Source: Candidatus Kaiserbacteria bacterium RIFOXYD1_FULL_42_15 (GTDB taxonomy: Bacteria > Patescibacteriota > Minisyncoccia > Phycocordibacterales > UBA918). From it: 32,145 nt of DNA. Under the pieces are notes generated by a model. The model made no database searches, was not told where the DNA came from, and saw only the letters and a program-made list of their open reading frames with translations. The stretch spans positions 29,408 to 61,552 of the forward strand of contig MFMT01000042.1 of the NCBI GenBank assembly GCA_001783565.1, in the 5' to 3' direction. Shown one piece after another: positions 171 to 32,106 of this stretch; position 1 is the first letter of the stretch; the number at the start of each line of letters is the position of its first letter. The position numbers and the translations under genes are program-made.

Positions 171-828
171 CAGTAACAAAAATCAGCTCAACTTTTTAGT
201 TGGGCGATTTTTTGTCTGTGCGCCGGGAGTGAGTGATTTAATATCACTCACGTAAGGATTTGAAGCCCGATTGAGCTGGATTATGAGTGAAGCGAAATAA
301 TCCAGCCAATTGGGGTACTGAACATGTAATGTTCAAATCCTTCCCGACGCACCAAATACCAAAACTCAAGCGACAGCTTGAGTTTTGTTGTATTTGGTAG
401 CGCCGGGAAGGATTTGAAAGACGAAGCCGGGGCCCCTCTGGGCCGGCGAGTCGGGGTCGAGCGAATGAGATATTTTGTGAATGAAATGAAACAAAATATC
501 CATGAGAGTGACCAAATCCTTCCCGACGCACGCGTATAAAAATCAGCTCAAGCTTTTGCTTGGGCGATTTTTATTGCGTGCGCCGGGAGCAAGCAAATAG
601 TTTTGCTTGCGTAAGGATTTGAAAGCCACAGCGATGTAGCTTTGCTACGAGCGAGGCGGGTGAGAAGTGATTTGACATCACTTCGCAAGACCTTGCCCGC
701 TATCTTTGAAGCGAAGCGAAAAGTAACGACAAGGTGTACAGAATTCGTAGAATTCGCGAACACTTTGTAGAATTGAACGTAGTGAAAATTATACTTAGTG
801 ATTCGTGTTCAAATCCTTCCCGGCGCAC
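171..828 (+). repeat. Array of three tRNA-Tyr 3'-tail units (171-352, 353-531, 532-828)
   Basis: Each unit has a terminator-like hairpin, an inverted copy of the tRNA 3' end, a structured core, then a direct copy of the tRNA-Tyr 3' end (331-352, 513-531, 807-828). Confidence 0.85.
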
Positions 829-8466: not shown

Positions 8467-8847
8467 ATGGAAATAAAACCCATTACTTTTGATAGACATG
8501 ACCGAGCGGCTTCTTTAATTAAAGAAATAGTAGCCACCTTCATTCAACAAGAGGCAAATCCCAATCCTCTTATTACCGTAACTCACGTTACTGTTTCTCC
8601 AGATTATCGAAAAGTGACAGTGTTTTTTACCACCATCCCTGACGGTCGCGAAGAAGATGCTTTAATTTTCCTCAAGCGCAGTGCTAATGAGATGCGCGGA
8701 TTTGTGAAGAAAAAAAGTAGTTTAAGAATTATTCCCCACTTGGAATTCTCAATAGACTACGGCGAACGACATCGCCAACACATCGATGAGATTGCCCACG
8801 AGATTGAGCACAGTGATGCCGACACCCCTACAGAACCAACCACCTAG
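8467..8847 (+). CDS. rbfA: Ribosome-binding factor A
   Basis: Position after infB; 'ITVTHVTVSPDYRKVTVFFT...RIIPHLEFSIDYGERHRQHIDEI'. Confidence 0.85.
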   Translation: MEIKPITFDRHDRAASLIKEIVATFIQQEANPNPLITVTHVTVSPDYRKVTVFFTTIPDGREEDALIFLKRSANEMRGFVKKKSSLRIIPHLEFSIDYGERHRQHIDEIAHEIEHSDADTPTEPTT

Positions 8848-8873
8848 GACATCCGATGTCCTAGGTGGTTGGT
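8835..8873. terminator. Near-perfect palindrome overlapping rbfA stop codon
   Basis: accaaccacctaggacat ccg atgtcctaggtggttggt, 18-bp stem; no strong T tract. Confidence 0.6.
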
Positions 8874-9245: not shown

Positions 9246-9329
9246 GCCGGGATGGTGTAATCGGTAGCCACGCAAGACTTAAAATTTTGTGGGCGCAAGC
9301 CCGTGCGGGTTCAAGTCCCGCTCCCGGCA
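9246..9329 (+). tRNA. tRNA-Leu (TAA)
   Basis: gccggga/tcccggc acceptor, loop cttaaaa, long variable arm. Confidence 0.93.
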
Positions 9330-9674
9330 CAATGTAATAGTACGTCAGATTTTTATCTGGCGTACTATTACATTTGCCCCAGGGACTTGAAGAGGTTGCC
9401 TGCTAGATTATGAGCTAGCGAAATAATCTAGCGACAACCTGTACTGAACTCGTAGAGTTCAAGTCCCGCTCCCGGCACAAATTAAAAACTATCATTCTTG
9501 AGAGTTTTTAATTTGTGCCGGGAAGAAAGCAAACTGCTTTGCTTTCGGGCGGGACTTGAAAGGCGGAGCGACGTGAGTTTACGAACAAGCGAGCCAGGGT
9601 CGTGAGCGATATATTTTTAAGGAGTTCACGACTATAAAAATAATCGACTCCTGACCAAGTCCCGCTCCCGGCAC
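9330..9674 (+). repeat. Two tRNA-Leu(TAA) 3'-tail units
   Basis: Direct copies of tRNA 3' end at 9457-9478 and 9657-9674; inverted copies at about 9374-9391 and 9515-9560. Confidence 0.85.
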
Positions 9675-10189: not shown

Positions 10190-10340
10190 CAAAAGAAAAA
10201 CCGTCCCGCAAGGGCGGTTTTTTGACTGCGCGAGAAGTAGTGTGTGGGACACACTACGGGAGGACTTGAAGAGGTTGCCAGCTCTTTTGAAAAAAGAGCG
10301 ACAACCTGTACTGAACTCGTAGAGTTCAAGTCCTCTCTCC
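10190..10340 (+). repeat. tRNA-Leu(TAG) 3'-tail unit
   Basis: Terminator hairpin; tgcgcgagaag + hairpin TAGTGTGT/ACACACTA + gaggacttgaa (inverted tail); core; direct tail gttcaagtcctctctc. Confidence 0.82.
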
Positions 10341-10848: not shown

Positions 10849-11035
10849 ACGTCTTTGCGAGTGAGAAAGTCCAGTGGACTTTCGCAAGACCTTGCCAGCT
10901 CTTTTGTAAAAAGAGCGACAAGGTGTACAGTCCCTGTTAAGGGAAAGCGCGGCAATCCACGTCCATCATCGTGTTCGTCTTCGCGAGTCGCAACGTGGCG
11001 ATCCACTTCTTCACCTAAACCACAGCCGAGCGAAA
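10849..11035. repeat. Mosaic intergenic repeat with type-1 structured insert
   Basis: gtctttgcgag...gagaaagtccagtggactttcgcaagaccttgcc...gacaaggtgtacagtccctgttaaggg...gcggcaatccacg. Confidence 0.75.
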
Positions 11036-14381: not shown

Positions 14382-14645
14382 GACGTGGATTGCTTCGCGC
14401 GACTCGCAAAGACGTTTCACTTTGTGTTCGTCTTCGCGAGGAGTGGAGTGGCAACGTGAAAAAGTGATTCAATATCACTTTGCAAGACTAGTTGAGCAGG
14501 TTTGTGAGTGAAACGAAACAAACTGGCCAACTAGTGGACAGTCCCTGTAAGGGAATGACGTGGCGATCCAGGGTGGCATGACGAACGATGTGGATTGCCA
14601 CGTTGCGACTCGCCTGTCTGCGCAGGCAGACAAAGACGGAGGGGT
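14382..14645. repeat. Mosaic intergenic repeat carrying a 99-bp type-1 insert (14457-14555)
   Basis: Near-identical to 17268-17428 apart from the insert. Confidence 0.88.
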
Positions 14646-25823: not shown

Positions 25824-26605
25824 GGATTGCCTGCCTGCACATGTATAACACCTAACGAGCCAGCAGGTGGGCTTCATGACGACTTGCAAAAACGGTAGTC
25901 TTCGTCATTGCGAGAAGGGTGACCGCAGTCTAATGACGTGGCAAATCCATGACCGTACAGAAACGTGGATTGCTTCGTTGTGACTCGCAAAGACGGGTAC
26001 GAAGAACGACACCCCACCATCGTCTTTGCGAGGAATGAGCTGGCAAGCAAATGACGTGGCAATCCACACCATCACCGTCTTTGAGGAGGGAGCTGGCAAG
26101 CGTGAAAAAGTGACTCAATGTTGTGTAAAATAATAAGCGTAGCGACTATATTTTTCATACATAGAATTTTTTATCCTTAATAAAAATTCTTGCACTTTGC
26201 AGCCAACTTGAGCTGGTTTGTACCCACCTTTAGCTGCGAGCAAAGCGTGGCAGGAAATAAAATAGCCAATGAGTGGACAGTCCCTGTTAAGGTGAGAAAT
26301 GTCTGGGTGAGAAAGTCCAGTGGACTTTCTCAAGAGGTTGCCTACTATTTTGCAAAAATAGCGTCAACCTGAACAGCTTCTGTATAGAAGACATTTCGCA
26401 GCCACATTGAGCTAGTTTTACCCACCTTTAGCTGCGAGCGAAGCGTGGCAGGAAATAAAGTAGCCAATGAGTGGACAGTCCCTGTTAAGGTGAGAAAAGC
26501 ATGGGATGCTTTTCGCAAGACTCATTGAGGGATTTTGTGAGTGCAACTAAACAAAATACCCAATGAGTGGACAGTCCCTGTAAGGGAGCAACGTGGTGAT
26601 CCAGG
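25824..26605. repeat. Large compound block of nested/tandem mosaic repeats and type-1 elements
   Basis: At least three GCAATCC-type repeats followed by several type-1 cores ending 'GGACAGTCCCTGTtAAGG'; near-duplicate blocks about 26200-26293 and 26399-26492. Confidence 0.8.
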
Positions 26606-31951: not shown

Positions 31952-32106
31952 CAGTGAATGAAATGAACGAAGGAAGAGGAGGTTGCAGCATTTTGAAAAA
32001 ATGCGTAGCAAGATTTGAAGCCCGATTGAGCTAGATTATGAGCTTGCGAAATAATCTAGCCAATTGGGGTACTGAACATGTAATGTTCAAATCCCTCCTC
32101 TTCCGC
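31952..32106 (+). repeat. tRNA-Ser 3'-tail unit
   Basis: Inverted tail ggaagaggagg + hairpin + gatttgaa, core nearly identical to tRNA-Tyr unit 1, direct tail gttcaaatccctcctcttccgc at 32085-32106. Confidence 0.85.

Follow-up and report, generated by a model that had tools for sequence, protein, structure and literature searches.

The units that lie behind tRNA genes in the DNA considered here are likely to be small non-coding elements of Patescibacteria, mobile or mobilised by something else, that settle at the 3' ends of those genes. What is shown is that the direct and inverted tails within the units are local, that the units contain a body with a covarying fold, that such bodies are common to different tRNAs, that there are filled and empty sites, and that units stand in tandem. 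What is inferred is that the body moves and that, with each move, the target supplies the tail by copying or duplication. The window, by which I mean the whole stretch of 32,145 nucleotides that was analysed, is C42:29408-61552, part of a contig in a 757-kb genome of 43 contigs (G000).

Two tandem units are found 3' of tRNA-Leu(TAA) (Table 1), each with the same order of parts: first a hairpin like that of a terminator, next the inverted tail (in part or in full), then the structured body, and finally the tail in direct copy. The two differ in their inverted tails. That of unit 1 is mostly the T-arm half, with an acceptor part amounting only to a weak TGCC at 9375-9378. That of unit 2 is full-length and is interrupted by an inner hairpin with arms AGAAAGCAAA and TTTGCTTTCGG, not one base of the inverted tail being lost at the interruption. 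The same exact insertion of an inner hairpin recurs at Tyr, Ala, Phe, and Val. The body of unit 1 is the core of a three-way junction (P3 hairpin, GTACTG linker, GTA-loop hairpin), and in unit 2 the stem of T2 (arms 9470-9494 and 9499-9523) reaches beyond the hairpin, into the tail copy on one side and the inverted tail on the other. Folding is far more stable in the units than in shuffles: z is -10.6 for 9309-9478 and -6.4 for 9511-9674. A first-pass annotation, made from the sequence alone, had claimed that both units end in copies of the tRNA-Leu(TAA) tail and not of the Tyr tail, and that the second contains a full inverted tail split by a hairpin. All of this held. With all 37 tRNAs of the genome considered, other tails match at no more than 14/18 positions there.

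Table 1. Features of the tRNA-Leu(TAA) locus and of the other tRNA-flanking units in the window (window coordinates)
Feature	Position	Strand	Detail or basis
tRNA-Leu(TAA)	9246..9330	+	Tail (T-loop to position 74) = 9309-9330; ARAGORN, Rfam
Unit 1 hairpin T1, terminator-like	9331..9374	+	Two 20-nt arms, 95% complementary; inverted repeat I4
Unit 1 inverted tail, T-arm part, GGGACTTGAA	9382..9391	+	Sequence
Unit 1 body, type A/B	9392..9456	+	Model R1 match 9383-9466, 85.7 bits; covariation
Unit 1 direct tail copy, gttcaagtcccgctcccggcac	9457..9478	+	22/22 vs tRNA-Leu(TAA) tail 9309-9330
Unit 2 hairpin T2	9479..9514	+	Inverted repeat I2
Unit 2 inverted tail, acceptor part, GTGCCGGGA	9515..9523	+	Sequence
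Unit 2 inner hairpin, AGAAAGCAAACTGCTTTGCTTTCGG	9524..9548	+	25 nt, interrupts inverted tail
Unit 2 inverted tail, T-arm part, GCGGGACTTGAA	9549..9560	+	Sequence
Unit 2 body, type C (AGGCGGAGC ... GGTCG ... CTCCTGACC)	9561..9656	+	
Unit 2 direct tail copy, tRNA positions 57-74	9657..9674	+	18/18 vs 9313-9330
tRNA-Tyr array, same architecture, three tandem units	172..828	+	Tail copies 331-352, 514-531, 807-828
Unit behind tRNA-Leu(TAG)	10191..10339	+	R1 match 10262-10333; tail copy 10324-10339, truncated after CTCTCTC
Unit behind tRNA-Ser(CGA)	31953..32106	+	Tail copy 32085-32106, 22/22; R1 match 32011-32094

Local tails are found well beyond this locus, throughout the genus and the order. In the window's genome, 17 of the 37 tRNAs have their own tail downstream at 16-18 of 18 positions, and no other tail equals it there. 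Across five genomes of the same genus, 60 of 167 tRNAs have at least one tail copy. Position by position, the copies are identical to their own tRNA at a level of 0.89-1.00 from position 57, within the T-loop, to position 74, and at about 0.5 or less outside those bounds; other tRNAs show an identity to the copies of about 0.3 in the acceptor part. The first-pass annotation had proposed testing whether distal tails match the local tRNA better than other tRNAs, and so they do, the tRNA's own tail being the best match in 61 of 61 cases from the five genomes. These were copies found by their match to a tail. Indeed, several sets (61/61, 60/167, and those that yield the values of 31/34, 0/40, and encoded CCA given below) were collected by similarity to the local tail, so that locality is partly built in.

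Less dependent tests come from searches that leave out the acceptor half of the tail. The motif-based sets still select for the T-loop half, the search having joined the body motif to the universal T-loop. Applied to GTDB genomes, it yielded 58 stretches. Amongst the 52 occurrences with a recognised upstream tRNA, 46 copies match their own tRNA at 19 or more of 22 positions, and in a subset, 44 of 49 copies match it at 15 or more of 18, vs 1.0% for other isotypes. One unit in this set, and only one (L165), has the tail copy of another tRNA, along with an inverted tail that is local; it may be a rearrangement through the body. Then there are the units found by the body alone, located in 20 further genomes by means of a covariance model (R1). 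Seventeen of them have a recognised tRNA: the tail copy is 18/18 in 13 cases, 13/18 in one, and lost in three, and none of the 17 matches the tail of another tRNA beyond the level of chance. I consider the derivation of the tails from the target tRNA to be supported by these results.

Units without a recognised tRNA are mostly at contig ends or follow tRNAs that were missed or are interrupted. At two loci (L257 and L152) a group I intron (RF00028) lies directly upstream of the unit. At these and, judged by eye, at three more (L305, L306, and L261), the tRNA gene that bears the unit seems to be split by a group I intron, and such tRNAs are missed by ARAGORN because the introns interrupt them. 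At L270, the Gln tail alone remains, without the body of the tRNA.

The bodies show no allegiance to a particular tRNA. For 40 units in the five genomes, the nearest other body in no case lies behind the same tRNA in a different genome (0/40). It is at another tRNA of the same genome in 15 cases and at another tRNA of another genome in 25. A value of 0/40 is also what random choice would be expected to give, there being one or two candidates at the same tRNA among about 39; what it excludes is the descent of units together with their tRNA. There are also pairs of bodies that are nearly the same. In the window's genome the bodies behind Tyr and Leu-CAA are 100% identical, and in G002 those behind Lys-CTT and Leu-TAG are 99% identical, and within each pair the tails, terminators, and inner hairpins are entirely different. 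The shuffling of inner hairpins and of terminators is independent of the bodies they accompany. That bodies so alike have different tails implies that the terminal segment comes from the target. That it comes from there and not from the element was also claimed by the first-pass annotation, and the claim is supported both by these pairs and by the local tails.

The body has a structure of its own. When 49 type A/B bodies are aligned with the flanking pieces of T-arm, a common fold emerges, consisting in order of an inverted T-arm piece (which pairs with the tail copy), GAAR, the P3 hairpin (which contains an internal loop), GTACT, and finally a small GTA-loop hairpin. In the alignment of 49 loci, 95% of cells are paired, with 251 two-sided changes vs 86 in shuffles, and the covariation score is 0.539, vs at most 0.133 for slid partners. 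RNAalifold recovers the same helices unaided. Of the two strands, it is the + strand that folds better (p = 2e-4; true of 23 of 24 type C bodies), and so the selected form is either + strand RNA or a single strand of DNA. Bodies range in size from 65 to 110 nt, and no coding gene is found inside any unit. At the gathering score, Rfam 15 gave only tRNA matches in the window and no family for the body, and permissive Rfam searches gave just sub-threshold matches of a microRNA-type hairpin. The body is present in 38 of the 39 genomes of the genus. The 58 stretches with the body motif in GTDB genomes are, by their record titles, from Patescibacteria only, and the motif had no match in viral contigs.

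Some sites can be compared in their filled and empty states. The cluster of Leu-TAA, Lys, and Leu-TAG, with an adjoining gene, is kept across much of the genus. The spacer from Leu-TAA to Lys is 50-54 nt in four genomes (G018, G019, G021, and G022), 109-126 nt with a terminator in two (G006 and G043), and 421 nt with two units in the window, and in other genomes it holds one unit of a different type. In the case of Thr-GGT and prfB, G009 has the tRNA, a terminator, and prfB, while in G001 and G002 the tRNA is followed by a unit, a tail copy, a terminator, and prfB. The unit therefore sits between the tRNA and the tRNA's original downstream spacer. All such comparisons are between species, with one genome per species and flanks that are not identical DNA, and none catches an insertion within a species. 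The direct repeat may extend as far as the terminator, the longest such repeat being 45 nt (Leu-TAA of G012), and at one locus (L150) it is the whole tandem unit, which implies that tandem amplification also occurs.

Two loci on another contig of the window's genome are of a different sort. At tRNA-Leu(GAG) (G000:C5), a type C unit has been duplicated in tandem from the terminator, without a tail copy, and ends in GTGACC. At G000:C5:10340-10512, and at the matching place in G009 (L175), the 5' part of tRNA-Arg(TCT) occurs once more; in this duplicate, an inner hairpin and a type B body break directly into the T-arm, and the tail no longer fits. It is possible to see in this an insertion straight into the T-loop.

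The inverted tail requires an explanation of its own. Of 34 positions at which a tail copy departs from its tRNA, the inverted tail agrees with the tRNA at 31. This is moderate evidence, since many of the differences are at the ends of copies, where decay is easy. Plain target-site duplication is insufficient, because it does not yield an inverted tail that, like the direct copy, is local and follows the tRNA. The first-pass annotation had offered target-site duplication or templated copying as the origin of the tails; the choice between the two is undecided, except that duplication in its plain form fails for the inverted tail. Only 14 of 49 units from across the order have a clear inverted acceptor part, and in units without it the tail copy is still mostly 18/18. 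The idea that pairing with the inverted acceptor part keeps the copy local was rejected, because copies are full-length where that part is missing.

Several tail copies look as if they could be fossils. The Asp copy at L073 matches the Asp tail of another species (L072), its own tRNA having changed. In the window, Tyr copies 1 and 2 have CCGACGC, which pairs perfectly with the 5' strand of the tRNA, and tRNA-Tyr and all its inverted tails have CCGGCGC. At a contig end of G012 (L125), tRNA-Arg(TCG) and a terminator are followed by a long inverted copy of the tRNA that reaches back to the anticodon arm, with neither inner hairpin nor body. It may be a true inverted duplication or a fold-back of the assembly.

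I propose that the part that persists and spreads is the structured body of 65-110 nt. A new copy would be placed between the tRNA and the original downstream spacer, with a newly made 18-nt copy of the local tRNA (from position 57 in the T-loop to 74) on its right and an inverted piece of the same tail on its left. The ends of the body would be T-loop sequence common to all tRNAs, TYGAA on the left and GTTCRA on the right. The most likely mechanism, and it is an inference, is that a strand bearing the body pairs with the T-loop or is joined there. A host polymerase would then copy the local tail outward, and a fold-back at the terminator hairpin would produce the inverted tail. Alternatively, the direct copy may be an 18-nt duplication from a staggered cut made by an unknown enzyme. 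The position of the inner hairpin, at a single exact point within the inverted tail, is explained neither by copying with fold-back nor by a staggered cut. Other evidence goes against the mobile-element reading as a whole: no mobilising enzyme was found, insertion was not caught within one species, and the better folding of the + strand would also fit an RNA of the host.

Of the rival views, the first is that the units are RNA switches that serve the host. The inverted tail would have two possible partners: pairing with the tRNA's own tail would spoil the tRNA, and pairing with the tail copy would leave the tRNA free. The body would act as the sensor that decides between them. The covarying fold, the better folding of the + strand (in type C bodies among others), and the way the inverted tail follows that of the tRNA all speak for this view. 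It is nonetheless unlikely, weakened because the units are not conserved at orthologous tRNAs. Moreover, bodies do not follow tRNA identity, copies are 18/18 even where the inverted acceptor part is missing, and changes in the copy are unmatched by changes in the inverted tail.

Also improbable is the view that the units are ancient residents, their bodies homogenised by gene conversion within the genome and their tails local because they never moved. It would account for near-identical bodies with different tails, and the independent shuffling of inner hairpins and terminators is in its favor. It does not sit well with empty orthologous sites, with varying numbers of units, or with the nearest body being so often in another genome at another tRNA (25/40).

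There is still less to be said for integration of the att type, in which a tyrosine recombinase crosses over in the T-loop and the tail copy is the displaced original end. Such elements do cross over in the block from T-loop to gene end, and at prfB it is the distal copy that carries the terminator next to the gene. However, each of five genomes has one tyrosine recombinase (a PF00589 protein), which I take to be the expected Xer, and no unit has a coding gene. The view is weakened by this single Xer-like recombinase and by the many tails served by one body, something that att specificity rules out. Pure replication slippage at palindromes, producing a direct-inverted-direct triplication of the tail without any element, would fit the + - + order of tail pieces, the fold-back point at the hairpin, and the tRNA-Arg of G012 followed by its longer inverted self-copy (at a contig end), but it is very unlikely, as a conserved, covarying body across a bacterial order needs selection or propagation.

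Known systems resemble the units in part. REP/RAYT systems (Y1/TnpA-REP) are like them in that both are short, non-coding, hairpin-forming, dispersed, and strand-asymmetric, and there are RAYT-like genes in this genome, but the ends of a REP are not derived from its target. An origin from RAYT/REP was rejected: the flanks of 15 Y1/RAYT genes carry short palindromes of their own, not the bodies of units. No Y1 transposase was found at E<=0.001 in G002 (99% complete) or in G007 (97%), both of which bear units. In the window, the palindrome CCACCTAGGACATC/GATGTCCTAGGTGG at 8840-8868 is an ordinary REP belonging to a RAYT-like gene elsewhere in this genome (G000:C7, L208), whose flanking palindromes it matches.

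MITEs and other non-autonomous insertion sequences are likewise small and gene-less, with a direct duplication of the target at the flank, and on that criterion the units qualify (an 18-nt copy of positions 57-74, with filled and empty sites). They do not qualify on the criterion of element-specific terminal inverted repeats: those of a MITE are the element's own, whereas the inverted segments of units are those of the target tRNA and follow it locally. Islands and prophages that integrate at tRNA genes also duplicate the 3' end of the tRNA, from T-loop to gene end. They are characterised by a dedicated integrase and specificity for a single tRNA, and the units, which are non-coding and have one body behind many tRNAs, meet neither criterion. 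Casposons and Cas1 make a similarly long staggered duplication of the tRNA 3' end, but no casposon genes or terminal repeats were seen in units, and an origin driven by Cas1 was rejected, Cas1 being found in 0 of 11 genomes tested. The attC sites of integrons are structured, single-stranded, and arranged in tandem arrays; the units differ in that no integron integrase was found, the core GTTRRRY/RYYYAAC is absent by eye, and there is no cassette gene. Inverted triplications of the ODIRA type share the direct-inverted-direct order and the hairpins at junctions, but the units are on a scale of 18-22 nt and always have a conserved, covarying body in the second junction. Reverse transcription of the tRNA end was rejected too, as reverse transcriptase (PF00078) is absent from G000 (84% complete) and G002, both of which bear units. 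Encoded CCA is not enriched after final copies (14/114 vs 32/169 for tRNAs without a unit). Directly behind tRNA-Leu(CAA) in G001 (L090) and tRNA-Met at L072 and L073 begin ORFs that look, and this is by appearance only, like homing endonucleases of the LAGLIDADG type.

A mobile body whose ends are remade from the target is favored because the readings based on an RNA switch, att integration, reverse transcription, Cas1, and Y1 are each weakened. A bolder form of this reading is that the units represent a class of non-coding mobile element with no ends of its own, a core that spreads by way of the universal T-loop and each time rewrites its direct and inverted ends from the tail of the local tRNA. 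I would not go so far as to adopt it, the balance at present tipping slightly the other way. To my knowledge, no type of element takes its ends from the target at each site, and no description of such units or of target-derived inverted ends was found in the open-access literature searched (subscription journals and preprints were mostly outside the search). If the bolder reading were true, target recognition and the formation of ends would be separate from the element's own sequence. Any tRNA could be entered, because the landing pad would be the universal T-loop and the ends would be templated on the spot. It would also explain a sizeable share of the DNA flanking tRNA genes in very small genomes that are otherwise poor in non-coding DNA. 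The units would also provide a natural setting in which to study templated copying at palindromes, and their bodies would make up a new family of structured nucleic acids, with strong covariation and no assigned function.

Two other features of the window deserve mention. Behind the tRNA-Tyr array, at 866-1350, are two short ORFs that resemble a toxin-antitoxin pair, the second RelE-like, judged solely by appearance. Weaker copies of the body, not at tRNA tails, occur at 14484-14555, 26517-26588, and 10876-10933. They lie within dispersed palindromic repeats (GTCTTTGCGAG/GGCAATCCACG) and have a similar order of hairpin, body, and GTA loop, with arms that do not come from tRNA. Perhaps the units at tRNA genes are one branch of a broader family of palindromes.
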